From NCBI RefSeq assembly GCF_001723355.1, contig NZ_LPWE01000010.1:434001-498000 (forward strand): DNA of 64,000 nucleotides. The letters run 5' to 3'. This DNA is from Methyloceanibacter stevinii (GTDB lineage: Bacteria; Pseudomonadota; Alphaproteobacteria; Rhizobiales; Methyloligellaceae). The position numbers were made by a program, and so were the translations under genes. Positions 1-64,000 of the stretch are shown here, in pieces. The first letter of the stretch is position 1; every line of letters begins with the position of its first letter. The notes beneath the pieces are model-generated. The model was not told where the DNA came from. It did not search any database and saw only the letters and a program-made list of their open reading frames with translations.

Positions 1-11
1 CCGCCATGCCA

Positions 12-1322
12 CTACAATTCCTCGCCGCGGAGGAGACGCGGTACATCGCCGGTCGCGCCTGCAGCTTCGCGGACGAGAAAACGTTTGAGGCCGGGCGCGC
101 GGTCGACCAGCCCCATGCCGAGGTCGCGGATCGTGCGCAGCGGTGCGCTGTCGTTCGAGAACAGCCGGTTCATGCCGTCCATCGCCGCACCCGAAAACGC
201 GCTGTCGAAGCGGCGCCGGCGCTGATAACGCCCGAGCGCCGTCGCCGACCCGATGTCGAGCCCCAACCGCGCGCTGTCGGTGATGGCTTCTACGAGGGCG
301 GCCACATCGCGCAACCCGATATTGAGCCCTTGGCCGGCCAGCGGATGCACCACATGGGCCGCGTCGCCCACCAACGCCAGGCGGTCGCCGACAAAGGCCC
401 GGGCCATCTGGAACGAGAGCGGAAAAGCCCGCGGGGGTCCTTCGAGCGAGATCGTCCCCAGGCGGTGACCGAAGCGGCGGCCGAGTTCGGCCAGGAAGAT
501 GTCCGGGTCGCCCTCGACCAGTTTCTTCGCGAGGTCGGCGTCCTCGGTCCAGACGATCGAGGAGCGGTTGCCCTTAAGCGGCAAGATGGCAAAGGGACCC
601 GAGGGGAGGAAATGCTGGATTGCGCGGCCCTGGTGAGGACGTTCATGGGCAACGGTCGCCACGATCCCCATTTGCGCGTAGGACCAGCCGATACATTTGA
701 TGCCGGCAAGGTCGCGCAGTTTCGACTTCTTCCCGTCAGCGGCAACCAGCAGCGCCGCCCGCAAGGCGCGCCCGCTCGCAAGATGAATGGTGGCGCCGAA
801 GCCATCGGTCTCGAAGGTCTGAACCGTGTCCGGCGCGATGAGGTCGATAGCCGGTTCGGTCCGGACCTCGTCCGCGATCGCCCCGAGGAGCGCCCCGGCT
901 TCGACGAGCCATGCTTTCGTCCCCTCATCCTTCAGCTCGTCCGCAAAACCCAGAAGGTGAGGCCGCAAGGCCGCATTGAGCGGACTGTCGGTGATCTCGA
1001 TCGCATCCATCGACTGCGCGCCTGGTTCCAAACGGGACCACAGCCCGACGGCATTGAGGAGGTTCTTCGAGGCAGGCGACAGCGCGAGGCCGCGCCCGTC
1101 AGGATCCCTTGTCGCGTCCGGCGCGGCCGCATCGACAAGCGTCACGTGGCAAGTCTTCGGCGCGAGACGCGCCAACGCCATGGCGAGGACGCCCCCGGCG
1201 AAGCCTCCGCCGGCAACGACGATGCGGAAACCGCTCTGTCCTTTGGCACTCTGCGACACGGGCCTTCTATAGGCGAGCCGGCTCGCCCGCGCCACATCTT
1301 GCGTGCCGGGCCCGAGTGGCAC
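12..1322 (-). CDS. FAD-dependent UbiH/UbiF/COQ6-family hydroxylase
   Basis: Predicted flavoprotein monooxygenase of the ubiquinone-biosynthesis hydroxylase family, which hydroxylates the aromatic ring of the quinone precursor at the inner membrane. The N-terminal Rossmann motif (VVAGGGFAGG, about residue 35) binds FAD. The mid-protein DG motif is AADGKKSKLRDLAG, and the GD motif is VGDAAHVVHPLAGQGLN, both typical. At 436 aa it is slightly long because the first ATG adds about 20 residues before the usual start; a GTG at 1259 would give a more typical N-terminus. It is divergent from the thioesterase gene at 1432. Which ring position it acts on (UbiH, UbiF or UbiL-like) cannot be told from sequence alone. 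Confidence 0.88.
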   Translation of the reverse strand: MPLGPGTQDVARASRLAYRRPVSQSAKGQSGFRIVVAGGGFAGGVLAMALARLAPKTCHVTLVDAAAPDATRDPDGRGLALSPASKNLLNAVGLWSRLEPGAQSMDAIEITDSPLNAALRPHLLGFADELKDEGTKAWLVEAGALLGAIADEVRTEPAIDLIAPDTVQTFETDGFGATIHLASGRALRAALLVAADGKKSKLRDLAGIKCIGWSYAQMGIVATVAHERPHQGRAIQHFLPSGPFAILPLKGNRSSIVWTEDADLAKKLVEGDPDIFLAELGRRFGHRLGTISLEGPPRAFPLSFQMARAFVGDRLALVGDAAHVVHPLAGQGLNIGLRDVAALVEAITDSARLGLDIGSATALGRYQRRRRFDSAFSGAAMDGMNRLFSNDSAPLRTIRDLGMGLVDRAPGLKRFLVREAAGATGDVPRLLRGEEL

Positions 1323-1431
1323 GGCGCCCGATGGGGGGGCCCAAGCGCCTTTTCGTACCCGCGATCAAGCTGCTATGGGCTTGGCCTTGGGCGCATCGCC
1401 CCCACCCACGCCATCGAACGAGGTCCGTCCC

Positions 1432-2298
1432 ATGAGCGCTGCCGTTGATCAACTTCTGTCGATCCTCGACCTTGAACCCCTGGAGCACAATCTGTACCGG
1501 GGTTTGAGTCCCCAGATCGGCTGGCAGCGGGTGTTCGGCGGCCAGGTCATCGGTCAGGCCCTTGTCGCCGCCCAGCGGACGGTGGAGGACCGGGGTGCCC
1601 ATTCGCTCCATGCCTATTTTTTGCGCGCCGGCGATCCCGCCGTCCCGATCATCTACGAAGTGGACCGGCTCCGAGACGGCAAGAGCTTCTCGACCCGGCG
1701 CGTCGTGGCGATCCAGCACGGACATCCGATCTTTTCCATGTCGCGTTCGTTCCAGCGGGCCGAAAAGGGGCTCGAGCATCAGACGCCCATGCCCGACGTA
1801 CCGCCGCCCGAGGAGGTCCCAAGCGAAGCCGCGCTGGCCGAGACCCTCATGGATCGAATGCCGCCGCCCGCCAAGGCCTATTGGCAGGCGGAGCGGCCCA
1901 TCGAGATGCGGCCCGTTGATCTATCGCGCTATTTGTCGCCGCAGAAGCGGGACCCGAGCCAGTACATCTGGATCCGGGCGAACGGCTCCTTGGCCGACGA
2001 CCCGGCACTGCATCAATGCGTCCTCGCCTACGCCTCGGACTTCACCCTCCTGGATACGGCCCTCGTCGCCCATGGCCGGTTCGTTTTTGATCCAAACCTG
2101 ATGCTGGCGAGCCTGGACCACGCCCTGTGGTTCCACCGGCCCTTCCGGGCAGATGAATGGCTGCTCTACGCTCAAGACAGCCCGATATCGGGTGCGGCAC
2201 GGGCGTTCTGCCGGGGCACGTTCTTCACGCGCGATGGGCGCCTCGTCGCCTCCACAGCCCAAGAAGGGCTTGTGCGCGAACGTGTGCCGTCCAAATAG
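1432..2298 (+). CDS. tesB: Acyl-CoA thioesterase II
   Basis: Predicted 288 aa acyl-CoA thioesterase II, a double hot-dog enzyme that hydrolyses medium- and long-chain acyl-CoA to free fatty acid and CoA. The conserved N-terminal stretch RVFGGQVIGQAL and the HSLHAYFLRAGD segment are visible. The C-terminal half contains YASDFTLLDTAL, with the catalytic Asp, and the late YAQDSP segment, with the Gln of the Asp-Ser/Thr-Gln triad. The frame is open further upstream to 1303, but family alignment places the start at the ATG at 1432 (MSAAVDQLLSILDLE). It stands alone, divergent from the UbiH-family gene. Confidence 0.92.
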   Translation: MSAAVDQLLSILDLEPLEHNLYRGLSPQIGWQRVFGGQVIGQALVAAQRTVEDRGAHSLHAYFLRAGDPAVPIIYEVDRLRDGKSFSTRRVVAIQHGHPIFSMSRSFQRAEKGLEHQTPMPDVPPPEEVPSEAALAETLMDRMPPPAKAYWQAERPIEMRPVDLSRYLSPQKRDPSQYIWIRANGSLADDPALHQCVLAYASDFTLLDTALVAHGRFVFDPNLMLASLDHALWFHRPFRADEWLLYAQDSPISGAARAFCRGTFFTRDGRLVASTAQEGLVRERVPSK

Positions 2299-2306
2299 CC
2301 TATTTT

Positions 2307-2429: not shown

Positions 2430-2862
<433 letters not shown>

Positions 2863-2879
2863 TTGGGGGAAAGTTGAAG

Positions 2880-4301
2880 ATGACGACCTTTGCCAAATAC
2901 ATGTTCGGCGTGGTCGCGGCGCTCTTTTTGGTAGCGCTGTTCCATGCCGACTCGGCATTTGCTGAGGGCGCCTCTCAGGCGGCCACTGCTCAAAGTGCCC
3001 AGATGACCGAGTTTCAGGTAGCCCAGGCTGAAGAGCCGCCGGCCGAAGAACCTCTCGCCGAAGCAGGCGAAGAGGCCGAACCTGAAGCCACACTCGACAC
3101 AGGCGACACGGCCTGGATGATCGTCGCCACGGCTATCGTGCTGATGATGTCCATTCCCGGCCTTGCCCTGTTCTATGGCGGCCTCGTCCGTAAGAAGGGC
3201 GTTCTGGCTGTCCTCATGCAGGTGTTTGCAATCGTCTGCTTGATGACGCTGCTGTGGTACTTCGTCGGCTACTCGCTGGCTGCGACCGACGGCGGTTCAC
3301 TGAACGCGTATATCGGCGGCTTCGACAAAATGTTCCTTGCCGGCATCGGTTCGGACACGTTGAGCGGCACGATCCCCGAATCGGTGTTCTTCATGTTCCA
3401 GCTCACCTTCGCGGCCATTACCCCGGCCCTGATCGTGGGTGCTTTCGCGGACCGCATGAAGTTCTCCGCCGTGTGCATCTTCATGTGCATGTGGCTGATC
3501 GTCGTCTATGTGCCGGTTTGGCATTGGGTCTGGGGCGGCGGCTCCTTTCGGAAGATGGGCGTTCTCGACTTTGCCGGCGGCACGGTCGTTCACATCAATG
3601 CCGGTGTTGCCGCCCTCGTGGCGTGTATCTTCCTCGGCAAGCGTGTGGGCTACCCGAACGAGAATATGGCACCGCATAACCTGGTGCTCAGCGTGATCGG
3701 CGCTTCTCTGCTGTGGGTTGGCTGGTTCGGCTTCAACGCCGGCTCGGCTCTCGGTGCCAATGGCGGCGCCGGCATGGCCATGCTCGCGACGCAGGTCGCC
3801 ACGGCAGCTGCGGCTCTTGCCTGGATGTTCGTCGAATGGCTCGTCCACAAGAAGCCGTCCGTCCTCGGCATCATCTCCGGTGCCGTTGCGGGCCTCGTGG
3901 CCATTACCCCGGCTTGCGGCTTCGTCGACGGTTGGGGCGCACTCTGGATCGGTATTGCCGCCGGTGTGATCTGCTTCTTCATGTCGACTGCCGTGAAGAA
4001 GGCGCTTGGCTATGACGACTCGCTCGACGTCTGGGGCATCCACGGCGTTGGCGGTATCGTCGGCGCCATCCTCACCGGCGTCTTCGCCGTTGAGGCGATC
4101 GGCGGTACGGCCGGCCTGCTCGAGGGCAACCCCGGCCAGGTGCTGACCCAGCTTTGGGGCATCGTCGCCACCATCGTGTGGTGCGGTATCGCGACCTTCG
4201 TTCTCCTGATCATCACCAACATTCTGGTGGGTCTCCGGGTCAGCGAGCCGGTCGAGATCGAGGGCCTGGACATCAACCTTCATGGTGAGACCGTCCAATA
4301 A
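2880..4301 (+). CDS. amtB: Ammonium transporter
   Basis: Predicted 473 aa ammonium/ammonia channel of the Amt family in the inner membrane, partner of GlnK. An N-terminal signal peptide (about residues 1-28) is followed by a roughly 50-residue Glu/Ala/Pro-rich periplasmic linker before TM1 (AWMIVATAIVLMMSIPGLAL). The twin-His pore residues appear in GGTVVHINAGVAALV and WGIHGVGGIVGAIL. The aromatic gate segment VFFMFQLTFAAITPALI is present. The ATG at 2880, preceded by GGGGGAAAG, is preferred over a GTG at 2859 that overlaps the glnK stop. A hairpin terminator follows at 4386. Confidence 0.95.
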   Translation: MTTFAKYMFGVVAALFLVALFHADSAFAEGASQAATAQSAQMTEFQVAQAEEPPAEEPLAEAGEEAEPEATLDTGDTAWMIVATAIVLMMSIPGLALFYGGLVRKKGVLAVLMQVFAIVCLMTLLWYFVGYSLAATDGGSLNAYIGGFDKMFLAGIGSDTLSGTIPESVFFMFQLTFAAITPALIVGAFADRMKFSAVCIFMCMWLIVVYVPVWHWVWGGGSFRKMGVLDFAGGTVVHINAGVAALVACIFLGKRVGYPNENMAPHNLVLSVIGASLLWVGWFGFNAGSALGANGGAGMAMLATQVATAAAALAWMFVEWLVHKKPSVLGIISGAVAGLVAITPACGFVDGWGALWIGIAAGVICFFMSTAVKKALGYDDSLDVWGIHGVGGIVGAILTGVFAVEAIGGTAGLLEGNPGQVLTQLWGIVATIVWCGIATFVLLIITNILVGLRVSEPVEIEGLDINLHGETVQ

Positions 4302-4420: not shown

Positions 4421-4508
4421 TGTCGAGCCGCGCAACGTCCAAGCGCGGCATGGCTGCAAAAGCGCGCCGTTGCTGCGAGCCGCGACTTGGCCTACACGCA
4501 GGCGGACG

Positions 4509-5723
4509 ATGTCCAACTCCGAAGCCGCCGCCGAAACCGCCCTCGATACGCTGATCCAATCGCCGTTTGCCCGGCTGAACGCGCTGCTGGAGGACACGCC
4601 TCCAGGGGCCGACCCCATTCTGTTTTCGCTGGGCGAGCCGCACACGGCGCTGCCCCCCTTCGTGCAGCCCGTGCTGGACGAACATGTTGCGTCGTTCGGA
4701 AAATACCCGCCCATTCGCGGCATACCGGAATTGCGGCAGGCCATCTGCGGCTGGCTTGCGCGGCGCTACCCGGCGCTCGACGGTGTGGTGGACCCCGAAC
4801 GGCATGTGCTGCCGCTCAACGGCTCGCGGGAGGGGCTCTTCTCCGCGATCTTCCCGGCGCTTGCGCGCAAGCCAGACATCGCCGACCCGGCAGTCCTCAT
4901 TCCGAACCCGTTCTACCAAGTCTACGCGGCGGCCTCGGCGGTTGCGGGCGCCGAACCCGTCTTTCTGAGATCCGGCGCCGAAACGGGTTTTCTGCCCGAT
5001 CTCGACAGCCTGGATCCGCGACTCTTCAGCGGACGGCGGCGCTGTATCTGTGCTCGCCCTCGAACCCAGAGGGCGCCGTCGCATCCCGGGACTATCTCGA
5101 GAAGGCGATTCGCCTCGCCTGGACCCACGATTTTCTGCTCTGCGCCGACGAGTGCTATTCGGAGATCTATACCGATACGTCGCCCCCGGGAGCCTTGGAG
5201 GTGGCGCTTGAGACCACGGGCAGCCTCGCCAACGTGGTCTCCTTCCAGTCCCTGTCGAAGCGCTCCGGACTTCCCGGGCTGCGATCGGGCTTTATCGCGG
5301 GCGATCCGGCGTTTCTGGCGGCTTTCGGGCGCTTTCGGAACGTTGCCTGCCCGCAGGTTCCCCTGCCGATCCAGTACGTTTCCGCCGCGGCGTGGGCGGA
5401 CGAGACCCATGTGGAGCAGGCGCGCGCCTTCTACCGGTCCAATTTCGAGGCCGCCGAGGCCATTCTTCAAGGCCAGTACGGCTATGCGAGGCCGGAAGGC
5501 GGCTTTTTTTCTTTGGCTGAATATGGCCGATTTCGGGGGTGGCGAAAGGGCCGCGAAAACCCTTTGGAAAGGATGTGGCGTCAAAGTTCTCCCAGGGACC
5601 TATCTCACGAAGTCGCAAGACGGCCAGGCCGATCCCGGCCGGGACTACGTCCGCCTTGCGCTCGTGCACGACGCGGAGACAACGCGCGACGGCCTTGCGC
5701 GGATCGTCGCCACATTGGGCTAG
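4509..5723 (+). pseudogene. DapC-like succinyldiaminopimelate aminotransferase, two compensating frameshifts
   Basis: Class I/II PLP aminotransferase, best matched to the DapC type of the lysine/diaminopimelate pathway. The N-terminal part (FSLGEPHTALPPF, KYPPIRGIPELRQAI) is in the frame starting at ATG 4509. The middle (YLCSPSNPEGAV, PLP-lysine motif SFQSLSKRSGLPGLR) is in the next frame. The end (LNMADFGGGERAAKTLWK to VRLALVHDAE) is back in the first frame. One base is missing near 5030 and one T is extra in the T7 run at 5504-5510; with both corrected the product is about 404 aa, the normal length. As written no single frame encodes the enzyme. The gene ends 20 bases before ftsK. Substrate identity is inferred from family likeness only. 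Confidence 0.85.
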
Positions 5724-9432: not shown

Positions 9433-9550
9433 TTTGCCCGGTGTCTTGTTCTTTGTCCCATGTCAGGCCGGGCCGCCATCCCCAGAAAACAGCGCCTTAG
9501 CCGCCCGTTACCATTGCGCGGGCCCCGGCGACGGATTAGCAAGCCTGATC

Positions 9551-17518: not shown

Positions 17519-18403
17519 TTAGGGACGACGATTGCGGCTAGCGGCCGGGTGTGCGCATGAGCCGTTCGCGCAAGTCTTCGAGCTGATCGAAATTCGTGTA
17601 GCGAATGCGCAGCTCGCCGCGTTCGCCGCGGCCGCTCTTGATCTCGCGCGCAGGCCCAGCGCTTCGTGCAGCTCCGTTTCGGCGGCGCGCGTGTTGGCGT
17701 CCTTGCCGGCCTTGGCCTTCGTCTTGCCCTTCGCCTTTTGTTCCTGGGCCAGCGCCTCCACCTGGCGCACCGTCAGCCCCTCCTTGACGATACGCTCGGC
17801 AAGCTTCGCGGCATCGTCCCGCCCGATCAGGGCGCGGGCGTGACCGGCGCTCAGGTCGCCGTTGCGGACGAGGTCGCGGACAGCCTTGGGTAACTTCAGT
17901 AGGCGGAGCGTATTGGCGAGGTGGCTGCGGCTCTTGCCGATGACCTTGGACAGGTCTTCCTGGGTGTAGTCGTGACCGTCCATGAGCGCCTGATAGCCCT
18001 CGCCCTCTTCGATGGCGTTGAGGTCCTCGCGCTGAACGTTCTCGATGATCGCGATCTCGATCGCTTCCTTATCCGTCAGTGTACGGATGATAACGGGAAC
18101 CTCATGGAGGTTTGCCCGCTGGGCCGCGCGCCATCGGCGCTCGCCGGCGACGATCTCGTATTTGTCGGTTCCCTTGGGGCGGACGACGAGTGGCTGCACG
18201 AGGCCGCGCTCGCGAATGGAGGCGGCGAGCTCGTCGAGCTGGGCATCGGGAAAGTCGCGCCGCGGGTTGTAGGAACTCGCCTTGAGCGCCGATAGAGCCA
18301 CGGTCCGCTGATCCTCGGAAGCGAGCGGGGTTCCCGTCGGCTCGTCTCCGATGAGGGAGGCGAGGCTCCGGCCCAATCGCTTCTTCTGTGCGCTCACTGC
18401 CAT
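17519..18403 (-). CDS. parB: Chromosome partitioning protein ParB, C-terminus frameshifted
   Basis: CTP-dependent clamp protein that loads at parS and partners ParA and SMC. The N-terminal ParA-contact segment is LGRSLASLIGD. The ParB/Srx domain has PLVVRPKGTDKYEIVAGERR and the GERRxRA box. The helix-turn-helix region follows (YTQEDLSKVIGKSRSHLANTLRLL). After LHEALGLRA the frame goes wrong: the expected tail beginning IKSGRGERGELRIRY is readable in the next frame, ending at 17538. One base is missing near 17645, so the last 40 or so residues as written (dimerisation domain) are artefactual. The corrected length is 288 aa. The start ATG at 18403 has GGAG upstream; parA lies 43 bp upstream. Confidence 0.93.
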   Translation of the reverse strand: MAVSAQKKRLGRSLASLIGDEPTGTPLASEDQRTVALSALKASSYNPRRDFPDAQLDELAASIRERGLVQPLVVRPKGTDKYEIVAGERRWRAAQRANLHEVPVIIRTLTDKEAIEIAIIENVQREDLNAIEEGEGYQALMDGHDYTQEDLSKVIGKSRSHLANTLRLLKLPKAVRDLVRNGDLSAGHARALIGRDDAAKLAERIVKEGLTVRQVEALAQEQKAKGKTKAKAGKDANTRAAETELHEALGLRARSRAAAANAASCAFATRISISSKTCANGSCAHPAASRNRRP

Positions 18404-18446
18404 CTTCTTGGTCTCCAGTTCCGGGCGGCATTGGGCCGCCCCCGCA

Positions 18447-19250
18447 TCATGCCGCCTTGATCCGCCGCTCGCGCTCGATGACCTCCGAGGCGAGCTGGAT
18501 ATAGGCTTGGCTTCCACTGCACTTGTAATCGTAGAGAAGGACGGGCTTGCCGTGCGACGGCGACTCGGCCACGCGCACGTTCCTCGGGATCACGGTCGTG
18601 TAGACCTTGTCGCCGAGGACATCCCGGACGTCCTGCACCACCTGGTCCGACAGGCTGGTGCGCTGGTCGTACATGGTCAGCACCACGCCGTGGATGCGCA
18701 GCTTCGGGTTGAGCCGGCCGCGGATCTCCTCGACTGTGCTCAAGAGCTGCGCCAAGCCCTCCAAGGCAAAGAACTCGCATTGCAGCGGCACCAGCACGGC
18801 GTCGGCCGCCGCCAGGGCGTTGAGGGTCAGAAGGTTGAGCGAGGGCGGGCAGTCGATCAGCACATAGGTCGTGCGCTCATCGTCACTCTCACTGGCCGCA
18901 AGCTCGGCGAAACAATCGCGCAAACGGTAGTGTTTGCCGCTGCTCTCGCCCACCTCCCGCTCGAACGACATCAGATCGATGGTCGCCGGGATGATCGACA
19001 GGCGCGGTACATGGGTCGCGACCTTCGCGTCGAGGATCGAGGCATCGCCGGTGAGAACGTCGAAGGTCGAGTGTTCGCGCTGTTCGATGCCGAGGCCCGT
19101 CGAGGCGTTGCCTTGCGGATCGAGATCGACGATCAGCACGCGTTCGCCGACGGCGGCGAGGGCGGTGCCGAGATTGATCGCGGTGGTGGTCTTGCCGACG
19201 CCGCCCTTCTGATTGGCGAGCGCCAGGACGCGCATGGCATTCCGGCTCAT
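18447..19250 (-). CDS. parA: Chromosome partitioning ATPase ParA
   Basis: A 267 aa deviant Walker-type ATPase that binds DNA nonspecifically and moves ParB-parS complexes. The deviant Walker A KGGVGKTT is at residues 15-22, and VLIVDLDPQGNAS (A') and VLIDCPPSLNLLTLNAL (Walker B) follow. The C-terminal segment YDYKCSGSQAYIQLASEVI is typical of chromosomal ParA. The start ATG overlaps the rsmG stop by four bases (ATGA), so rsmG-parA-parB are translationally coupled and form one minus-strand operon with mnmG. Confidence 0.97.
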   Translation of the reverse strand: MSRNAMRVLALANQKGGVGKTTTAINLGTALAAVGERVLIVDLDPQGNASTGLGIEQREHSTFDVLTGDASILDAKVATHVPRLSIIPATIDLMSFEREVGESSGKHYRLRDCFAELAASESDDERTTYVLIDCPPSLNLLTLNALAAADAVLVPLQCEFFALEGLAQLLSTVEEIRGRLNPKLRIHGVVLTMYDQRTSLSDQVVQDVRDVLGDKVYTTVIPRNVRVAESPSHGKPVLLYDYKCSGSQAYIQLASEVIERERRIKAA

Positions 19251-21953: not shown

Positions 21954-23303
21954 CTATTTGCCGATGCAGAACTCGGAGAAGATGGCGCCAAGCACCTCCT
22001 CCACGTCGATCCGGCCCGTGAGGCGCCCCAAATGATGCGCGGCGATCCGCAGCTCCTCTGCCCGGAGCTCCGCATCGAGATCATGGTTAACAAATCGTTT
22101 CAGCGCGTCCCGAACTGACACAAGCTCGGCCCGATGGCGCGTCCTCGTGATCGGTGTCGCGCCTGCGGAATCGACGCCCTCACCCGCACGCGCGCCCAAC
22201 TCCGCGATGAGACCGTCCAGGCCCTCTCCCGTCTTGGCCGAGATCGTCAACCCGGATACGTCACCCAGCTCCGGTCCAGAGCCCAAATCCGATTTGTTCG
22301 TCACGGTCACAACCGGCACCTCGCCAAAGCCCGGCGAAGCTTCCGGCTTCGACGCGTCGGCATCCACGATCCAAAGCACCAGGTCCGCCGCCTCCGCCCG
22401 CGAGACCGCGCGCCGGATGCCCTCGCTCTCGACGGCGCCGCCGCCCTCGCGAAGCCCGGCCGTGTCCGCCACGATGATCGGCATACCGCCGATATCCAGA
22501 TGGACCTCGATCACGTCGCGCGTGGTGCCGGCCTCCTCCGAGACGATCGCCACATCACGCTTTGCGAGCGCATTCAGGACCGACGACTTGCCGGCGTTCG
22601 GCGGTCCCGCGATGACCACGCGAAACCCGTCCCGCAGGCGCTCGCCGCTATGATCGGCGAGATGCGCCTCAAGGCGCGGCAGCAGGGCCTGGACCACATC
22701 GACGGCGAGCCGCGCGGCGTCGTCCGCAACGTCCGCCTCGTCGGAAAAATCGAGCCCAGCCTCCATGAGGCTCTGCGCCTTGAGGAGCTCGGCCCGCCAA
22801 CCCTCATAGAGATGCCGAAGCCCGCCTTCGGACTGGGCCAGGGCCTGACGCCGCTGGGCCTCCGTCTCGGCGCTGACCAGATCGGCCAGGCCCTCCACTT
22901 CGGTCAGATCCAGCTTGCCGTTCTCGAAAAGCCTCCGGGCGAATTCGCCGCGCTCGGCAAGGCGCGTGCCCGCCGTGACCAGCGCGGCCTCCACTACGGC
23001 CTTGACGACGGCACGGCCGCCATGCACCTGCAGCTCGGCCATGTCCTCGCCCGTGAAGCTGGCCGGACCCGGAAACCACAGCACCAGCCCGCGATCGATC
23101 CCCCCGATGCGGCGCAAGGCTGCTTCACGTGGAACAGGCAGTGATTCTATGAGGTGCTCAAGTACCGCACGTGTCTGCGGCCCGGAAATCCGAACGACCG
23201 CGACGGCGGCGACCCCTGCGCCCGAGGCGAGCGCCACGATCGTCTCGCCGGACTGCGACGCTTCCGCCCGCCTGGACTCGTGATGCGTGGGGCTATGCTT
23301 CAT
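21954..23303 (-). CDS. mnmE: tRNA modification GTPase MnmE
   Basis: A 449 aa G protein that works with MnmG on tRNA wobble uridine. The N-terminal tetrahydrofolate-binding domain ([21 protein letters not shown]) is followed by a helical domain holding an inserted G domain. G1 is [10 protein letters not shown], then GTTRDVI, DTAGLRE and the TNKSDLG motif. The C-terminus is the invariant CIGK box with its catalytic Cys. A parS-like site (23121-23136) lies within the 5' part of the gene. Confidence 0.96.
23121..23136. promoter_or_regulatory. parS-like site 4 (within mnmE)
   Basis: TGCTTCACGTGGAACA; its reverse complement TGTTCCACGTGAAGCA fits the general parS form TGTTNCACGTGAAACA with one mismatch. 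It is located in the first sixth of mnmE. Confidence 0.7.
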
Positions 23304-23360
23304 AGTCTATCGTACCCGAAGAATATCGAATTCGCGGCCACACGCGGACCGGAAGGCAGG

Positions 23361-25404: not shown

Positions 25405-25426
25405 AAGCGCCGGCCCGAAGGCCGAC
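25402..25426 (-). terminator. Terminator of rho
   Basis: On the minus strand GTCGGCC-TTCG-GGCCGGC forms a 7 bp stem with a stable tetraloop, followed by GC and TTTT, directly after the rho stop codon. Confidence 0.7.
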
Positions 25427-25430
25427 ACTC

Positions 25431-26696
25431 CTACGTATTCATCGAATCGAAGAACTCGTCGTTGTTCTTGGTCTGCTTCAGTTTGTCGACCAGGAACTCG
25501 ATCGCATCCATGGTGCCCATGGGGTTCAGGATGCGGCGGAGCACGTACATCTTCTTGAGCTGATCCTTGTCGACCAGCAGCTCCTCTTTCCGGGTACCGG
25601 AGCGGGCAATATCGATGGCCGGGAACACGCGCTTGTCGGCGACCTTGCGGTCGAGCACGACTTCGGAGTTACCGGTGCCCTTGAACTCTTCGAAGATGAC
25701 TTCGTCCATGCGGCTGCCCGTATCGATCAGGGCCGTGGCGATGATCGTCAGTGAACCGCCTTCTTCGATATTACGCGCGGCGCCAAAGAAGCGCTTCGGG
25801 CGCTGGAGCGCGTTCGCGTCCACACCGCCGGTCAGCACCTTGCCGGAGGAAGGGACCACCGTGTTGTAGGCGCGGCCCAGACGCGTGATCGAATCCAGAA
25901 GGATGACCACGTCACGGCCGTGCTCCACAAGGCGCTTGGCCTTCTCGATAACCATCTCGGCCACCTGCACGTGGCGCGCGGCCGGCTCGTCGAAGGTCGA
26001 GGACACGACCTCGCCCTTCACCGAGCGCTGCATGTCGGTCACTTCTTCCGGGCGCTCGTCGATCAGGAGCACGATCAGATAGCACTCCGGATGATTGGCG
26101 GTGATCGCGTGGGCGATATTCTGGAGGATCACCGTCTTACCGGTGCGCGGCTGGGCCACGATCAGGCCACGCTGGCCCTTGCCGATCGGCGCCACGATAT
26201 CGATGACCCGTCCAGTATGGTCCTTCCTGGTCGGATCCTCGGTCTCCATCTCGAGACGCTCGTCCGGATAGAGCGGCGTCAGATTGTCGAAATGAATCTT
26301 GTGGCGCTGCTTGTCGGGGTCCTCGAAATTGATTGTGTTGACCTTGAGAAGCGCGAAATAGCGTTCGCCTTCCTTGGGGCTTCTGATCTGCCCCTCGACC
26401 GTGTCGCCAGTCCGAAGACCGAAGCGCCGGATCTGCGAGGGCGAAACGTAGATGTCGTCGGGGCCGGCCAGATAGTTCGAATCCGGCGACCGTAGAAAGC
26501 CGAACCCATCCTGCAGTACCTCGACCACGCCCTGGCCGGTGATGTCGACCTCCCGGGCGGCGAGTTGCTTCAGGATCGCAAACATCAGCTCTTGCTTGCG
26601 CATGGCGTTCGCGTTTTCGACTTCGACCTCCTCGGCAAAGCTCAAAAGCTCCGTCGGCGATTTGGCCTTCAAATCTTGCAGCTTCATTTCCTGCAC
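25431..26696 (-). CDS. rho: Transcription termination factor Rho
   Basis: A 421 aa hexameric RNA helicase that ends transcription. The N-terminal RNA-binding domain has [23 protein letters not shown] split across an OB fold. Walker A is QPRTGKT preceded by [10 protein letters not shown], and Walker B is [15 protein letters not shown]. The Q-loop and R-loop regions are intact ([14 protein letters not shown]). The first start is a GTG at 26696, with an ATG three codons later at 26687; either is acceptable. It has a 285 bp leader to the next gene upstream, with a hairpin. Confidence 0.97.
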
Positions 26697-48559: not shown

Positions 48560-48711
48560 CGTGTGTGGCGCCCCCGGTGCTTTCGTGGTGCCGCCATGGT
48601 AGGACGGCCGCCGGCAAAAAATTGTGCGGTGCCGTTGTATGACGACCGGGCGCTTGTCACAAGTCTGGCAAGGTTCGAATATCGCTCGACCAAAGTAGGG
48701 GGCTGTCGGAC

Positions 48712-49280
48712 ATGGGTGGACGGGCGATCGGGACCATTGCGACCGTTCTCGGGAGCTGCGCTTTGCTCCTTGCCACGATGCCGGCCTTCGGTGCGGCCGA
48801 AAGCGCTTATACGCCGCTCGTTCTCGACAAATGCGACAACATCACGCCGCCCGCGTTCGCCGAACATGGGGTGGTCTTTCGGTGCAAGGGATATGGCGGC
48901 ATGGCCGTCCGGGTCGCGGAGGGTGACCTACGCATGTTCGTGTCCTATGGCGACGGCGCGAAGGATCAGACCGCCGCGGGGCAGACCCTCCCGATGTTCA
49001 ACACGATTGGAGAGACGCTGGAGTGGCGGGTCGAGGACGGGAAGCCGTTCGCCACGATCCTGCGGTACCATTGGGACTCGGACGCCTCGGCGGAGGGTCG
49101 ACCCTGGTCGTCACCAAGCTCGGCAACACCAACGCCTGCCATGTCGCCTATGTGCGCGCGGAAGAGAACCCGGACGCGAACAAGCTGGCCCGCGAAATCG
49201 CGGACAATGACGCGCGCCGGTTCTCATGCGAACGAGATCGGCCGCGGACATACGGCCCCGGCGGTCAACCGGTCGACTGA
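48712..49280 (+). pseudogene. Secreted protein of unknown function, frameshifted
   Basis: A signal peptide ([20 protein letters not shown], cleavage near AFGAAES) is followed by a small domain with two cysteines ([18 protein letters not shown]) and IGETLEWRVEDGKPFATI. Near 49096 the frame shifts: the expected continuation STLVVTKLGNTNACHVAYV, then ENPDANKLAREIADND and a stop at 49280, is in the next frame. A GGG at 49095-49097 lacks one G. Corrected, the protein has about 189 aa. I do not recognise the family beyond a likely periplasmic or exported domain with four Cys. It lies divergent from dapB. Confidence 0.7.
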
Positions 49281-49310: not shown

Positions 49311-51406
49311 TTACGCGACGTTGCGGTCGAGCGGCTCGTCTTCGAGCGGGTTGGCGGGCACTTCGGCCTCGGGCCGGCCGAAATAGTAGCCTTGGACCTG
49401 ATCGCAGCCCCAGCGCTTCAGCATGGCCGCCTGCCCTTCGGTTTCGACACCCTCGGCGGTAATCGTCACATGCAAGGATTGGCCGAGGCCGACAATGCTG
49501 GAGACGATCGCGCTTGTCTGCGGGTTCGTGCCGAGCGTATCGATAAAGGATCGGTCGATCTTGATCTTCTTGACCGGGAAACGGGTCAGGTAGGACAGGC
49601 TCGAATAGCCGGTGCCGAAGTCGTCCATTGCAATGGAAACGCCAAGCTGGTCCAGCCTGCTGAGCGTGTCGATGACCTTGTCGGTATTTTGCAGGATGGT
49701 GCTTTCCGTGATCTCGAGCTCGAGGCGTTCCGGCTCCAGGCCCGTTTCCACGAGCATCCGGCGCACGAGCTCGAAGACATCTTGTGTCTTGAACTGGGCC
49801 GGCGACAGGTTCACGGCTAGCTTGGTGTCGCTCGGCCAGCCCAAGGCGTAGGTGCAGGCGGTCTTCAGGATCCACTCGCCGAGAGGCACGATGAGACCCG
49901 TCTCCTCTGCAATCGGCACGAATGTCGACGGCGGGATTTCACCTTCGGTCGGGTGCCACCAGCGCACGAGCGCCTCGTAGCCGGTGAGCTGGCCTTCGCT
50001 GAGACCAAACTGCGGCTGATAGTCGAGATAGAGCTGGTTCTTGCGGATGGCGTTGCGCAGGTCATGCTCCAGACGCCGGCGTCTCTGGAGCGCGGCGTCC
50101 ATGGCCGGTTCGAAGAAGCGGAACGTATTGCGTCCGTCCTGCTTGGCGCGGTAGAGGGCCAAGTCCGCATTCTTCATCAAGATCTCCACGGGCTGATTGG
50201 CGATCGGCCCGAGGGCGATGCCGACGCTGGCGGAGGTGGTGATCTCGTGGCCGTTGACCATGTACGGCGCGCTGAGCGCATCGCAAACGCGCTGGGCCAA
50301 GGTCATGGCGTCTTCCGGAACCGTGATGTTCTCGGCGACGACGGCGAACTCATCGCCGCCCATCCGTCCGACGATGTCGCTGTCGCGAAGGGTCTCGACC
50401 AGCCGGGCGGAAACCTCTTCGAGCAAGGCGTCGCCGGTCGCGTGGCCAAGGGTGTCGTTGACGTTCTTGAACCGGTCCAGGTCCAGTCCGAAGACGGCAA
50501 TCTTGGTATCATGCCGCTTGGCGCGGGCAACCGCCTGTTCCAGGTGATACCTGAACTGCAGCCGGTTTGGTAGCCCGGTCAGGGAATCGTGCATGGCGAG
50601 GTAGCGGATCTTGTCCTCGGCCTGCCAACGTTCGCGAATGCGCCGCGACGCGATGGCGGCCGGAACCGAGAAACCCATGATGATCAGAAGGCTCGTCGTC
50701 ACGGTCACGGCGACAAGGGCGAGGTTGGTGAGGGCGGCTGCCGCGCTCTGGTCGACCTGGAACGCATAGAGATAGGCCACGTTGCCGTTGTGGATCACGG
50801 GAACGATAGCGAGGCTCTTTCGATCTTGTCCCGGCAACGAGGCGACCGTGATCTCTTTGAGCGCAACCGCGTCGGCGATGGCGGCTCGGTTCTGGTCGGT
50901 CTGGAGCGTGCGTGTAAGGCGTCCGGCGCGAGCGGACCGCCGACAGCCATGGGCTCGCCTCTCGGGCTGAGCACGGCAAAGCCTTCCATCTTACTCACGG
51001 CATCCTCGCCGGAGCGTCCGGGATCGGCGGCAAGCAGTCCGCCCGTGAGCCAGCGAAGACGGTCGGCGAATTTGCGATGGCTTTCATTGACGGAAACCGT
51101 CGGCATGTTGGAATCCGCGCTCGGGTCGAACGTCAAGTGCCGCCGCAGCTCTGCCGGATCGATGACGTGCAGAGCCTCTCCCTCAGGCAGAGCCTCTCCC
51201 TCAGGCAGAGCCTCCTCCCCATCCAAGGCCCCGCGAAGGCGCTTGTCGGCCTCGGTGCCCCACGCGTGCGCCGCGTTGCTGGCCTCGACCTCGAGTGCGT
51301 AATTGATTGCAGATCCGCCCGAAAGAACGGCGGCCGTCACCGTGAAAAGCCCCAGCACCACAAGACCAAGCATGATCCATCGGTCGCGCTTGTCGATCTC
51401 CGCCAT
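49311..51406 (-). pseudogene. Diguanylate cyclase / phosphodiesterase (GGDEF-EAL), frameshifted
   Basis: Membrane c-di-GMP enzyme. The N-terminus has a TM segment (RWIMLGLVVLGLFTVTAAVL), then a periplasmic sensor (about residues 30-240) and a second TM (LALVAVTVTTSLLIIMGFSV). A GGDEF domain follows with an I-site RDSD five residues before GGDEF. The EAL domain follows, with EALVRWW, ELEITES, DDFGTGYSS and AEGVETEG, all catalytic residues present. The first part (51406 to about 50910) and the rest lie in different frames; one base is missing near 50905-50915. Corrected length is about 698 aa. Both activities appear possible. Confidence 0.9.
51170..51214. repeat. 18 bp tandem repeat in the sensor domain of the GGDEF-EAL protein
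   Basis: CAGAGCCTCTCCCTCAGG occurs twice exactly (51170-51187, 51188-51205), with a 9 bp partial third copy. Translated, it repeats EALPEG in frame in the periplasmic part of the sensor. Confidence 0.9.
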
Positions 51407-55278: not shown

Positions 55279-56393
55279 ACCGGCGTGCGGTTGCAGGCCG
55301 TAGTGTAGGTCCGAAGGCGACTGCTATCCTTGAGAGAGCTCGGCGCGCGCGCCGTCGGCAAGCCACCGCGCAACGCACCGGCGCCCATGGCGCCGGGCAG
55401 GGTCGCGGCCTGGCCGGACCAGAGCGGGGAGAAGTCGCTCGAGCCTTCGGCCTCCGCCTTCGCACGCAGCGGTGCGATCGCAGGGCGTCCGCGCGGGAAA
55501 TGCGGCGCGGCGGCATTCATCGGACCCTGTTCGCGCATGAAGCGGTTGACGACGCCACGGGCCGGTCGCCCCGTCAGCACGTTCGTCATGGCGGTTTCGC
55601 GTGCCGGATCCGCAAGCGCTGCGCGATGAAGCGGCGGCGTCCAGGCCTCGTCCGTCAGAAGGTAGGCGGTGCCGACCTGTACCGCAGCGGCACCCAGCGA
55701 AAAGCAAGCGGCGATCGCCTGCCCATCGGCGATGCCGCCTGCGGCGATCACCGGCAGGTCGAGGTTCGCCGCGATACTGCGCACGAGCGCGAACGTCCCG
55801 ACCTGACGGGAGACGTCGGTTTCCAGAAACATGGCGCGATGGCCGCCGGCCTCGGCACCTTGGGCAATGATCGCGTCGACACCGTTCTCGGCGAGGTAGC
55901 GTGCTTCGCGGAGCGAGGTCGCCGAGGAGATGACCTTGCAGCCGGTGTCCTTCACGCGCGACAGCAGCGGCGCGGCAGGTAGACCGAAATGGAAGCTGAC
56001 GATCTCCGGTTTGGCGGACTCGATCGCGGCGCACTCGGCGTCACCGAACGGCGCGTGCCCGGCCGGCAGCGGCAAATCCGGCGGCGCAACTCCGGCCGCC
56101 TCGAAATAAGGCGCGAGATGCGCAAGCCAGGCGCAGTCGCGCTCGGGATCGTCGGGCTCGGGCGTATGGCAGAAGAAATTGGCGTTCAGCGGCGCGTTCG
56201 TTTCTTCGCGGAAGGCAGCGACCCCAGCTTCGATCTCCGCCGGGTCGAGCACCGCGCAGGGAAGCGCGCCGAGTCCGCCCTCCTGAGCAACCTCGATCGC
56301 CAGCTCGACCCCCGCCGAGTTGGCCATGGGGGCGGCGAGAATCGGGACGTCGATGCCAAACAGGTCGAGAAGCCGTCGGTCAGGCCAGGTCAT
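55275..56393 (-). CDS. NMO/2-nitropropane dioxygenase-like flavoprotein, 3' end frameshifted
   Basis: TIM-barrel FMN enzyme. The N-terminal FGIDVPILAAPMANSAGVELA, central AIIAQGAEAGGHRAMF and PVIAAGGIADGQAIAACFSLG are diagnostic of the nitronate monooxygenase group. Near residue 340 the frame changes: RWLADGARAELSQG with stop at 55324 is the family-like end, readable in the next frame, and a base is missing between 55370 and 55371. As written the frame goes on to 55275. Corrected length 356 aa. The substrate, a nitroalkane or something else, is not known. Confidence 0.88.
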   Translation of the reverse strand: MTWPDRRLLDLFGIDVPILAAPMANSAGVELAIEVAQEGGLGALPCAVLDPAEIEAGVAAFREETNAPLNANFFCHTPEPDDPERDCAWLAHLAPYFEAAGVAPPDLPLPAGHAPFGDAECAAIESAKPEIVSFHFGLPAAPLLSRVKDTGCKVISSATSLREARYLAENGVDAIIAQGAEAGGHRAMFLETDVSRQVGTFALVRSIAANLDLPVIAAGGIADGQAIAACFSLGAAAVQVGTAYLLTDEAWTPPLHRAALADPARETAMTNVLTGRPARGVVNRFMREQGPMNAAAPHFPRGRPAIAPLRAKAEAEGSSDFSPLWSGQAATLPGAMGAGALRGGLPTARAPSSLKDSSRLRTYTTACNRTPV

Positions 56394-57637: not shown

Positions 57638-57763
57638 TCCGAAGTCCTGCCGAAGTCTTGGAGAGGCGCGCGATTGCGGCGTTGGCCGGGACTATAGGCG
57701 CGGCGCGCCCGCGCGCAAGAGGGGCCAGAGGCGAGACGTATAGCGGCCAGAGGCGAATACCCG

Positions 57764-59485: not shown

Positions 59486-59583
59486 GCGGTCTTCCAAATG
59501 CTCCACTCCGTGACGCCCGCGCCGGTCGCGACTATAGATGGCGCGACTATAGAAGATGCATCGCAGCCCCGGGGACCGGCATC

Positions 59584-60175
59584 ATGCCTAGAATCGACTT
59601 TTGGTACGAGTTCGCCAGCACGTATTCGTACGTGACCGCCATGCGCATCGCGCGGCTCGCGGGCGACGCGGGCGTTGCGGTTCGCTGGCGGCCGTTTCTG
59701 TTGGGGCCGATCTTCAAGGAATTCGGCTGGAACGATTCGCCGTTCAATATCTATCCCGCCAAGGGGCGCTATATGTGGCGCGACTTCACCCGGGTGTGCG
59801 AGGACGAAGGCTTGCCGTTGCGCCTGCCGCCTGTGCGCTTTCCGCAGAACGGCGTGAAGGCTGCACGGCTCGCGCTTGCCGGCGAAACGGACGGCTGGAC
59901 GGCGGCGTTCACGCGCGCGTCTTCACGGCGAACTATGCGGAGCAGCGCGACATCTCCGACGACCAAGCGCTGCGGGACATTCTGGTCGGCATCGATGTCG
60001 ATCCGGACCGCGCCTTCGAGGCCGCGAATGCCCCGGCGGGCAAGGAGGCGTTGTTCGCCCAGGTCGACGAAGCGAAAGCGCTCGGCATTTTCGGTGCGCC
60101 GTCTTTCACGTCTGCGACGAGTTGTTCTGGGGCAACGACCGGCTGGAAGCGGCGCTGCGCTGGGCGAAGGGGTAG
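59584..60175 (+). pseudogene. 2-hydroxychromene-2-carboxylate isomerase / DsbA-like family, two frameshifts
   Basis: Thioredoxin-fold isomerase-like protein. The N-terminal part (IDFWYEFASTYSYVTAMR, FKEFGWNDSPFNIYPAKG) starts at ATG 59584. After about 59919 the frame changes (VFTANYAEQRDISDDQALRD), and after about 60110 again (VCDELFWGNDRLEAALRW, stop at 60175). Two bases are missing, one in the CGCGCGCG run at 59912-59920 and one between 60110 and 60111. Corrected length is about 197 aa, as in the family. The N-terminal FWYEFASTYSY marks the HCCA/DsbA-like group, often glutathione-dependent. The substrate is unknown. Confidence 0.85.
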
Positions 60176-60178
60176 CTT

Positions 60179-60739
60179 TCAAGCGTGGTTCTCGAGCCAG
60201 GCCACGACATCGGACGCGCTCGAGGTCGGCGGGAAGACCGGATAGATCACGTGCTCGATGGCGCCGTCGCGTATGATGAGCGTGAGCCTCTTGATCAGCC
60301 GCATGCCGTCTACAGTGAAGGTCGGCAGGCGCAGCGCCTCGGTGAATGCGAGCCGGACATCGCTCAGGATCTCAAAGGGAAGATGCAGACGTTCCGCCAT
60401 CTCGCGCTGATAGGCGGTGTCCTGGGTGCTGAGCCCGAACACCTGCGCCCCGAGCCGGGCGAGATCGGCGGCGTGGTCGCGGAAGGCGCAAGCCTGCGGT
60501 GTGCACCCGCGCGCACCAGGGATGGCGTCCCACCCGTCGGGCAACGGCTCGCCGGGCACGCCGGTGCGCGGATAGCAATAGATGACCGTGCGGCCGGGAC
60601 CGAGGCGGGCGAGGTCGACGTCGCGCCCCTTTGTCGAGGGAAGGACAATCTCCGGCATCTCCATACCGGCAAGATGATCGCAGGCGCCGTCGTCGATGGG
60701 GCGGGGAAGGTCGTCCGGCAGGTCCTGCAGGCTGCTCAA
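60179..60739 (-). CDS. Peroxiredoxin (BCP/AhpC-TSA family)
   Basis: A 186 aa thiol peroxidase-like protein. The motif [18 protein letters not shown] leads to [19 protein letters not shown] with two Cys separated by four residues, of the atypical BCP-like type. [18 protein letters not shown] and [15 protein letters not shown] are typical. The family N-terminus ([16 protein letters not shown]) requires a start near the TTG at 60739, which overlaps a TGA in another frame. No nearer ATG gives the full domain; a later ATG at 60664 would lose part of it. Confidence 0.85.
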
Positions 60740-61931
60740 GCCCGCGCTCGTCGAGACGCGCGCTCGCCCGCTGCTTCAGGCTCGCGCTCTTGAGCTGGCC
60801 GCAGGCGGCCATGATGTCGCGGCCTCTCGGGCTGCGCACCGGGCTCGCATAGCCGGCGCGGTTCACGACCTCGGCGAACTTCTCGATCTGCTCCCAGTCC
60901 GAACATTCGTATGGCGCGCCCGGCCAGGGATTGAACGGAATGAGATTGATCTTGGCGGGGATCTTCTTGAGCAGGCGCACGAGCGCCTTTGCGTCGTCGA
61001 TCGAGTCGTTCACGTCCTTGAGCATCACATATTCGAAGGTGATGCGTTTGGCGTTGGAGAGGCCCGGATAGGCGCGGCAGGCGTCCAGCAATTCGGCGAT
61101 TGGCCATTTGCGGTTGATCGGCACCAGCTCGTCGCGCAGCTCGTCCCGCACGGCGTGCAGCGAAATCGCCAGCATCGTTCCCGCTTCGTCGCCCCAGCGC
61201 GGAATCTCCGGCACGATGCCCGAGGTGGACAGCGTGATGCGGCGCTTCGATATGGAGAGCCCCTCGCCGTCGGCGGCGATGGCGCACGCCTCGCGCACGT
61301 TGTCGAAGTTGTAGAGCGGCTCGCCCATGCCCATGAGCACGACGTTGGTGATCTTCCGTTCGCCGGAGGGGAGCCCCGTGGGATCGTCCGGGACCGCGCC
61401 GGGCCAATCGCCGATCCGGTCGCGGGCCAGAAGGATCTGCCCGACGATCTCCTGTGCGGTGAGGTTGCGCACGAGCCGTTGCGTGCCCGTGTGGCAGAAG
61501 GTGCAGTTCAGCGTGCAGCCGACTTGGCTCGAGATGCAGAGCGTGCCGCGATCCTCTTCAGGGATGTAGACCGTCTCCACATCTTTGCCGTCGGCGAGAC
61601 GGAGCAGCCATTTGCGCGTCCCGTCGACGGAGACCTGCTCCGACACAATTGCCGGGCGATCGAGCGAATACCGAGCCGCCAGCGTGGCGCGCAGATCCTT
61701 CGCGACATCGGTCATGGTGTCGAACGAGGTCGCGCCGCGCACATAGAGCCAGCCCCAGAGCTGGGCGATGCGCATGCGCAGCTGCCGCTCGGGCACGCCG
61801 GCTGCGGCCAGCCGGTCGCGCAGCGCGTCCCGGCCAAGTCCGGCAAGGCTTTCCCCGGCAAGGCTTTCCCGTGCGTGCGTATCGGCGGCCTGCGGCTCCG
61901 CGGCCGGATCGGTTGTGGCGGTCTTGGTCAT
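60372..61931 (-). CDS. rlmN: 23S rRNA/tRNA (adenine2503-C2)-methyltransferase RlmN
   Basis: Radical-SAM methyltransferase for 23S A2503 and tRNA A37. The cluster motif is [12 protein letters not shown] (CxxxCxxC) near residue 135. [34 protein letters not shown] and [34 protein letters not shown] follow in order; the methyl-accepting Cys is near [12 protein letters not shown]. As written the frame runs to 60372, 360 bp into the peroxiredoxin gene in another frame, giving 519 aa. The family ends just after ACGQLKS, so the real stop is probably near 60736, where TGA in the neighbouring frame abuts the peroxiredoxin start. The last 120 or so codons are likely artefact. An N-terminal ESLAG is duplicated. 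Confidence 0.92.
61841..61870. repeat. 15 bp tandem duplication in rlmN
   Basis: CGGCAAGGCTTTCCC occurs twice exactly in tandem at 61841-61855 and 61856-61870, giving repeated ESLAG in frame in the N-terminal extension of RlmN, before the conserved domain. Confidence 0.9.
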
Positions 61932-62069
61932 GACAAATAGCTTCTCGGCCCCTCATATCATGAGGCGAACCGGAAATGCCAAGATGTGGCGCGCTCGAAG
62001 CGGTCCTATGCGTCGTCCGCTACGGGTACCCGGCCTGCCAGGCTTTGAGAAAAAAGAAGTTCGGCGAGC

Positions 62070-62582: not shown

Positions 62583-62654
62583 CTCCCCGTCCCCGTGTCG
62601 TGAGCAGTCTCTACGCATGAATGGCTGCAGTCTTCCCTAGTTATGGTCCAAAGG

Positions 62655-63203
62655 TCAACCCTGACGCCGCCGCTTGGGCCGCCCCTGGACATGAGGCGCC
62701 AGCGGCGGTGCTACGGTTCCCTCGCTGACCGGACGCGGGGCGAAACGACCCAATGCCCGAAGCCGGTCATACATTACGATTGCCCCTGCTGTCGCCACAT
62801 TCAATGAGAAATTCGTCGGAATGCGAATTACATGACCGCAGCGCGCAAGCAGCTCTGCGCTCAGTACACCCCGTTCCGGTCCCAGCACGTACGCACACTG
62901 CAAGGGATGAGGAAAACTCGGCAGTTCTGTGGCGTCGTCCAGGATTTCGATGCCGACGAGGCTGCAGCCCTTGGGGAGCTGCATTTCGTCCACCGTCTGC
63001 CAGTGATAAACCGGCAGGTGGTTGTCAGCCTTGGATGTGTCCGAGCGCATCTTGAGGGACCGGGCGTCCGCGCCGACCGTAAACGCAAAGCTCGCTCCGA
63101 AGGCGTGCGCCGACCGGAGCAGGCCGCCGAGATTCTCCGCTTTGGAAATGCTCTCGGCGCCGATGCCGAAATAGCCGCGCGTGGTTTGAGTGGTCGGTCT
63201 CAC
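62655..63203 (-). CDS. SpoU-family (TrmH-like) RNA 2'-O-methyltransferase
   Basis: A 182 aa SPOUT methyltransferase. Motif 1 is FGIGAESISKAENLGGLLRSAHAFG with Asn and Arg (NLGGLLRSA). Motif 2 is YVLGPERGVLSAEL, motif 3 is IRIPTNFSLNVATAGAIVMYDRLR. Substrate (tRNA Gm18 or rRNA) is undecided. The GTG at 63203 fits the family; the frame extends upstream without homology. It is divergent from the oxidoreductase gene. Confidence 0.88.
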   Translation of the reverse strand: MRPTTQTTRGYFGIGAESISKAENLGGLLRSAHAFGASFAFTVGADARSLKMRSDTSKADNHLPVYHWQTVDEMQLPKGCSLVGIEILDDATELPSFPHPLQCAYVLGPERGVLSAELLARCGHVIRIPTNFSLNVATAGAIVMYDRLRALGRFAPRPVSEGTVAPPLAPHVQGRPKRRRQG

Positions 63204-63335
63204 GGGGCTTGTTTGCCACACGGGAGGCCCGAGAAAAAGGCGGCTGTGCAGGCTCGTTGCCGCGCGGTCTTGTGATGGCGGCGCACACGGGGCAAAAGGC
63301 GTGGACGGCAACGCGACAGGACCGGGGGCCATTAC

Positions 63336-64000
63336 ATGCGTGCAGTGCAGTTCAGCGAGTTCTCGGGGATCGATGCGCTCAAGCTCGTTGAGATCGCAGA
63401 CCCGACGCCGAAGCCCGGCGAGGTCGTGGTCAAAGTCACGGCGGTCGGCCTCAACTTCTTCGACACGCTGGTCCTGCGGAACAAATACCAATTCACGCCG
63501 AGCCTGCCCGCGTCGCCCGGCGGCGAGATCGCCGGGGTCGTAGAGGCGCTCGGCGACGGGGTCACCGACCTCACGATAGGCCAGCGGGTCATGGCGCATG
63601 TGGGCGGCAACGGCTGCCGGGAACGGCTCGCCGTCAACGCTGCGCGCGCGATCCCGATTCCCGACAGCGTCAGCGACGACGTGGCGGCGGGCGTCTCGGT
63701 CACCTACGGGACGGCGATGCACGGCTTCAAGGACCGGGCCAAGCTGCAGCCCGGCGAGAGCGTCGCGGTGCTGGGGGCGGCGGGCGGCGCGGGTCTCGCG
63801 TCCGTCGAGATTGCCAAGCTAATGGGTGCGCACGTGATCGCCGTCGCTTCGTCGGAGGAGAAGATCGCGTTGGCCATGCGGCACGGCGCCGACGAGGGCA
63901 TCGACTACGAGACCTGCGATCTCAAGACGACGCTCAAGGAGCGGACGGCGCCCGACGGGCTCGACGTGCTGTACGACTGTGTCGGCGGCGATGCGGCGGA
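63336..64000 (+). CDS. Quinone oxidoreductase-type (MDR/zeta-crystallin) protein, partial
   Basis: Start of a medium-chain dehydrogenase/reductase; the window ends after about 221 codons with the frame open. The N-terminus MRAVQFSEFSGIDALKL is typical. VGLNFFDTLVLRNKYQF and PASPGGEIAGVVEALGDGV follow in the GroES-like domain, and the cofactor motif VLGAAGGAGLASVEIAKLMGA is NADPH-type. No zinc-ligand Cys/His pair in the usual places, so it is of the zinc-free QOR group. It is divergent from the SpoU gene with a 132 bp gap. Confidence 0.9.
   Translation, partial: MRAVQFSEFSGIDALKLVEIADPTPKPGEVVVKVTAVGLNFFDTLVLRNKYQFTPSLPASPGGEIAGVVEALGDGVTDLTIGQRVMAHVGGNGCRERLAVNAARAIPIPDSVSDDVAAGVSVTYGTAMHGFKDRAKLQPGESVAVLGAAGGAGLASVEIAKLMGAHVIAVASSEEKIALAMRHGADEGIDYETCDLKTTLKERTAPDGLDVLYDCVGGDAA

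Follow-up and report, generated by a model that had tools for sequence, protein, structure and literature searches.

Probable residual one-base errors, and the loss/gain pairs that hide some of them, in a genome assembly of Methyloceanibacter stevinii

Introduction

Conserved genes in a 64,000-nucleotide stretch of the Methyloceanibacter stevinii genome (NCBI RefSeq assembly GCF_001723355.1, contig NZ_LPWE01000010.1, positions 434,001 to 498,000; hereafter the window) are interrupted by insertions and deletions (indels) of a single base, which raises the question of whether these broken reading frames belong to the organism or to its assembly. A sequence-only reading of the window had listed at least seventeen such indels, 14 losses and 3 gains, in twelve named genes, and had considered uncorrected sequencing or assembly error the simplest explanation. 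The comparison with closely related genomes that it had proposed showed the indels to be specific to the M. stevinii assembly with respect to its two closest comparators. With a probability of about 0.95, they are residual consensus errors of the assembly, and they are almost certainly not a biological feature, as judged from substitution patterns and alignments. Part of the base gains lie next to losses whose frame they restore, and the origin of these pairs is the second question considered here.

Materials and methods

The genome containing the window (3.2 Mb in 14 contigs, completeness 99.63%; labelled G000) was compared with five others, labelled G003, G004, G009, G013, and G014. G014, a single contig, is the closest relative compared (96% identity to G000 over a probed gene), and G004, also a single contig, is a finished genome from the same genus (92% identity over the probed gene). 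Both are syntenic with the window nearly end to end. One scan of viral contigs found no relative.

Indels were counted in three ways. At the gene level, 63 of 77 candidate genes were aligned in four to six genomes each (G009 in 17 genes only), the remaining 14 being left out, and only indels found in a single genome were kept. In the whole-window count, each event had to appear against both G014 and G004; the pooled region counts and the G013 comparison likewise required agreement against two references. The third count, a three-way comparison, covered twelve regions on contigs 2, 10, 11, 12, and 13, comprising 531 kb of coding and 57 kb of noncoding DNA; it replaces an earlier pooled count over 10 regions, and its gene rule is looser. 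Indels lying at most 9 to 15 columns from gene ends were left out of the gene-level and some region counts. Locally dissimilar alignment was left out below an identity of 0.6 in the whole-window count and below 0.7 or 0.75 in the region counts, as were open reading frames (ORFs) with too few mismatches or too little third-position bias. The 63-gene count returned 23 unique rows for G000, three of which were not clean (a duplicated gain, a 19-base gain at the 5' edge of a gene, and a gap at the window end).

Results

One-base indels in the window and across assemblies

The gene-level count yielded 18 one-base rows for G000 (14 losses and 4 gains), of which one gain was recorded twice under overlapping ORFs, leaving 17 distinct events with the same totals of 14 losses and 3 gains as originally proposed, in addition to three unique in-frame indels. 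Over the whole window, 20 losses and 6 gains were found, including several in intergenic DNA that the first list lacked. G014, as a control, had 8 losses and no gains in the same coding DNA. All twelve named genes carry indels once the gene-level, whole-window, and seven-region counts are combined, and a family search on the relatives' copies agreed with their naming (P-II, ParB, DUF255, URO-D, Kinase-PPPase, RNase_T, MltA, EAL/GGDEF, NMO, DSBA, and aminotransferase class I/II), with no Pfam match for the gene of the small secreted protein.

Some of the assemblies, and not others, carry the excess of one-base indels. In the 63 genes, unique one-base indels numbered 30 in G013, the most error-rich of the six genomes, 18 rows in G000, and 10 in G014, and were low in the other three (1 in G004, 2 in G003, and 2 in the 17 genes of G009); G003 had 13 unique indels of a length not divisible by three, 11 of which were longer than one base. 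In the readable part of the 23S rRNA gene, which is partly masked and gives little power, G013 showed two one-base losses and G000 none.

Nor is the excess local to the window. The coding DNA of the twelve regions contained 163 losses and 44 gains of one base in G000 (0.39 per kb), compared with 34 and 10 in G014 (0.08 per kb) and 40 and 34 in G004, which has the longer branch (0.14 per kb). In noncoding DNA, losses and gains numbered 40 and 12 in G000, 21 and 15 in G014, and 45 and 48 in G004, respectively, so that the losses of G000 beyond the level of G014 amount to about 0.24 per kb coding and, on few noncoding events, about 0.33 per kb noncoding. Density varied between regions: among the first seven, coding events of a length not divisible by three numbered 0 in 12 kb of contig 12, 17 in the 35 kb adjoining the window, and 18 in 58 kb of the window itself. 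Overall, a net shift persists to the end of 99 of the 599 sampled genes of G000, and in a further 34 the events cancel.

Substitutions downstream of the shifts

Measured in the old frame, third codon positions received 75.0% of the substitutions unique to G000 downstream of a shift (n = 1,482), 73.7% of those upstream (n = 1,585), and 75.3% of those in genes that had no net shift (n = 9,169), the share among the substitutions of G014 itself being 75.9%. Genes that are out of frame on paper thus appear to evolve as working genes in their old frame, and the persistence of its third-position pattern after the shifts suggests that in the organism itself the genes are unbroken. Substitution errors were not in excess in G000 in either of the two regions tested (share of first and second positions in the window, 0.245 vs 0.238 in G014), and with this normal codon-position spectrum a second class of error, made up of substitutions, was rejected.

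The indels also reach core genes, often late in their length: the loss in hemE lies within the last 4% of the gene, and those in parB and rplL at relative positions 0.89 and 0.98. A gene with a murC-like half, scoring below the family's curated cut-off, carries two losses that do not cancel. The statement that the essential genes parB and hemE are hit is accurate, with the qualification that both losses are late (0.96 for hemE).

Run context of the losses

Runs of two identical bases took 26 of the 39 coding losses of G000 in the first seven regions, nine removed single bases, and four lay in longer runs; 22 of the 39 removed a G in the coding sense. The idea that the indels sit in G, T, or CG runs thus holds for very short runs only, runs of at least four accounting for one loss in 39. 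No methylation-type or slippery motif common to the 39 contexts was seen by eye, no formal motif test having been run. In G014, 11 of 15 losses lay in runs of three to six, and, given these different run-length signatures, the errors of the two assemblies seem to differ in kind.

Coupling and direction of losses and gains

Among the 44 coding gains of G000 in the twelve regions, 32 lay at most 60 bases from a loss in the same gene. Neighbouring events formed 32 opposite-sign and 16 same-sign pairs, for which uniform placement expects 1.4 and 2.7, respectively, and shuffling of the labels in 20,000 trials gave a mean of 16.2 and a maximum of 28 opposite-sign pairs. Read along the gene, 27 of the 32 pairs began with the loss (two-sided p = 0.00011), an order seen on both strands (12/16 on plus-strand and 15/16 on minus-strand genes) and at both spacings (9 of 11 pairs less than 10 bases apart, 18 of 21 pairs 10-60 bases apart).

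In all 29 two-event clusters with no net shift, the second event preceded any stop in the shifted frame, with 3 nt allowed; a rough estimate from unpaired losses is that about 3 of the 29 should have failed this stop criterion. Only one of the 32 paired losses lay in the last 150 nt of its gene, where unpaired losses are densest, a density to which natural indels at 3' ends contribute, as in G004. The pairs enclose only 14 substitutions, eight of them at old third positions.

As a control, none of the 10 gains of G014 formed a pair with a loss. Pairs in G004 were less than 10 bases apart in 12 of 15 cases, resembling aligner output in diverged stretches, and had the loss first in 7 of 15; in G003, the loss was first in 2 of 5. 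For G013, a syntenic stretch with 65 kb of coding DNA, compared with G014 and G004, contained 11 opposite-sign pairs at most 80 bases apart, six of them loss-first, and comparison with G003 and G004 gave six loss-first pairs of seven, which weakly backs the gene-direction signature.

Effect of the pairs on proteins

A pair leaves a full-length protein with a garbled internal block. Relative to G014, GlnK differs at 7 residues, all within 80-86, AmtB at 10, five of them within 229-233, the DnaQ-like protein at 26, 18 of them within 162-179, and RpoB at 20, 14 of them within 45-61; none of the four contains an internal stop. In a family search, the RpoB of G000 scored 1,944 bits, 12 to 20 below eleven higher-scoring relatives, one other full-length relative scoring lower still. 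The prediction that every protein is wrong downstream of its shift consequently needs correcting for glnK, amtB, and dnaQ, where a second indel brings the frame back and the error is confined to an internal block; in the main, the sequence-only reading was right in fact and interpretation and erred in details of position and of restored frames. The genome has another P-II gene on contig 13 (309725-310029), with 75% identity to the glnK of the window, as do G014 and G004.

Affected genes and neighbouring features

The affected genes of the window are listed in Table 1.

Table 1. Genes of the window carrying indels in the M. stevinii assembly (window coordinates; event positions approximate).
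Gene	Position	Strand	Events	Remarks
glnK (P-II)	2524..2862	+	loss ~2761, gain ~2783	frame restored; residues 80-86 garbled
amtB (ammonium transporter)	2859..4301	+	loss ~3544, gain ~3559	frame restored; residues 229-233 garbled; missed by the sequence-only reading
class I/II aminotransferase (DapC-like), before ftsK	4450..5723 (ends approximate)	+	gains ~4462, ~5510; loss ~5024	
parB	17541..18517	-	loss ~17647	C-terminal part
yyaL-like (DUF255/thioredoxin)	22134..25431	+	losses ~25269, ~25295	frame not restored
hemE (URO-D)	27446..28468	-	loss ~27463	last 4% of gene
DUF299 / PpsR kinase-pyrophosphorylase	28897..29732	+	loss ~29215	
dnaQ-like exonuclease	31849..32538	+	loss ~32333, gain ~32389	frame restored; residues 162-179 garbled
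mltA	34114..35117	+	loss ~34310	
small protein gene (secreted protein of the sequence-only reading)	48708..49280 (ends approximate)	+	loss ~49084	no Pfam match
GGDEF-EAL gene	49314..51406	-	loss ~50920; 18-base in-frame gain ~51169-51214	
NMO-like gene	55324..56393 (3' end approximate)	-	loss ~55371	relative position 0.96
DsbA-like (HCCA-like) gene	59490..60182 (start approximate)	+	losses ~59918, ~60110	
RlmN-like radical SAM gene	60740..61931 (ends approximate)	-	loss ~60747	at 3' end; missed by the sequence-only reading

The G014 copy of the DapC-like aminotransferase gene has an error of its own. G014 has further frame-breaking one-base events, for example at positions equivalent to about 4634, 27734, 59237, 59703, and 61386 of the window; most such events fall in runs of three to six. 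The 18-base in-frame gain in the GGDEF-EAL gene, apparently a short repeat, is absent from G014 and G004. Repeat-like length differences of 4 to 19 bases among the three close genomes occur at about 9442-9474 and 57652-57668, in intergenic or gene-edge DNA, and G014 is about 1.4 kb longer in the interval that separates the yyaL-like gene from the gene after it (window ~25387-25432). Elsewhere, about 21 kb of contig 13 (~235.6-256.4 kb) and about 9 kb of contig 12 (~302-311 kb) have almost no counterpart in the matching G014 and G004 stretches and are possible strain-specific islands.

Discussion

Assembly error as the source of the indels

That the indels are residual consensus errors is indicated by the excess in particular assemblies, the density of losses in noncoding DNA, the involvement of core genes, and the substitution pattern; the explanation first put forward as the simplest is thereby strengthened. 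The similar density of losses in coding and noncoding DNA, taken together with the third-position bias of the unshifted frame, in effect excludes decay and leaves assembly error. Three points weigh against this conclusion. It is drawn from a comparison of assemblies; the substitution rate after a shift is slightly higher than in genes without a net shift (0.0263 vs 0.0224 per column); and the losses of G000 do not climb steeply with run length. Nanopore or 454 errors usually do climb steeply with run length.

Published systems provide a scale. For long-read contigs, Arumugam et al. (2019; PMC6469205) give 6 frameshifts in each kb of aligned sequence, a figure that fell to 1.2 once the contigs had been polished with short reads. 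Such long-read genome and metagenome assembly errors resemble those of G000 in being dominated by indels and in breaking predicted genes, whereas the rate in G000 is lower, at 0.39 one-base indels per kb coding, and its losses are mostly in runs of two.

Origin of the frame-restoring pairs

Most of the consensus errors are losses of one base from a very short run, GG or CC for example; the comparison puts them at about 0.3 per kb of the sampled coding DNA. Random, gene-blind error accounts for these losses, but not for gains that follow gene direction; since the gains are coupled to losses and follow that direction, simple random error is insufficient for them. The likeliest origin of the paired gains is a frame-aware, protein-guided repair step, acting on reads or contigs, that would have added a compensating base at the wrong place, usually downstream in the gene. 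Whether the paired gains are traces of such a step is, in our judgement, an evenly balanced matter.

Tools of this kind are in use, namely MEGAN-LR (PMC6469205, PMC7966762) and proovframe (PMC10548655, PMC10652852); a deposited Janibacter limosus genome had undergone protein-guided frameshift correction (PMC10652852), and such correction may, according to another paper, distort the true sequence (PMC10548655). The likeness to G000 lies in reading frames restored from protein alignments. The difference is that the MEGAN correction inserts N (PMC6469205), of which the sampled regions of G000 contain none, and that the compensating bases of G000 can lie as far as about 60 bases away from the loss.

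That absence of N is the first of several observations that count against a repair step. Some of the added bases duplicate no neighbour, and some pairs are more than 50 bases apart, a placement that a good alignment would not choose. Coupling is not unique to G000, 16 of the 34 coding gains of G004 lying at most 60 bases from a loss, although nearly all of the G004 pairs span less than 12 bases and they show no preferred direction. In G013, the loss came first in 4 of 4 pairs at least 10 bases apart and in only 2 of 7 shorter ones. Finally, about four fifths of the coding losses of G000 have no partner.

A single gene-blind, length-keeping consensus process could alternatively lie behind all the errors, pairs included. 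It would explain a clean intergenic loss/gain pair at about 31830/31840 and the fact that three of four two-event clusters in noncoding DNA are net zero, as counted in only 57 kb. Such a process would nevertheless have no reason to place losses first in gene direction on both strands, and the gains of G000 show no noncoding excess (12 vs 15 in G014). We consider this explanation doubtful.

Mutually compensatory pairs of frameshifting mutations are described as real evolutionary changes in a published report (PMC8935012), and raised slippage, with selection keeping loss/gain pairs, would likewise yield two nearby indels that jointly keep the frame. The strong enrichment of frame-restoring pairs that close before the first stop agrees with such an origin. 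In G000, however, the pairs strike conserved blocks, as in GlnK and RpoB, and occur among uncompensated errors; unpaired shifts outnumber the pairs and show no selection, and several pairs enclose DNA identical to G014. Selection on real pairs is unlikely on these grounds, and we regard this alternative as very improbable.

Decay in a lineage that loses genes through frameshift fares slightly worse still. Mycobacterium leprae is an example of gene loss by this route, and the 99 of 599 sampled genes that end out of frame are what such a lineage would present. The third-position share downstream of shifts is, however, practically that of genes with no net shift; the indels strike parB, hemE, rplL, the murC-like gene, and other core genes, although hemE and rplL only at their very end; and G014, despite its 96% identity in the probed gene, lacks the events, though by construction of the counts. 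Programmed frameshifting or recoding can be dismissed almost outright, as losses and gains alike are scattered over unrelated genes, are absent from G014 and G004, and share no slippery motif apparent by eye in 39 contexts.

Consequences for the use of the genome

Despite a completeness of 99.63%, about one in six of the sampled genes is out of frame at its end, so that predicted proteins, pseudogene counts, and the comparisons derived from them are unsafe for this genome. Frame-restoring pairs leave full-length genes and are therefore missed by counts of truncated genes. If the pairs stem from repair, a reading as likely to hold as to fail, public genomes can carry off-target frame repairs whose loss-first pairs pass frameshift-based quality checks while garbling conserved proteins such as GlnK, AmtB, DnaQ, and RpoB. 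To those who read the proteins, the garbled blocks would pass for rapidly evolving patches or a changed active site. The coupling of gains to losses, together with the bias in gene direction, offers a signature for screening other assemblies, G013 perhaps among them. For M. stevinii, the hidden pairs are a lesson in sequence quality, and they are the part worth a second look.

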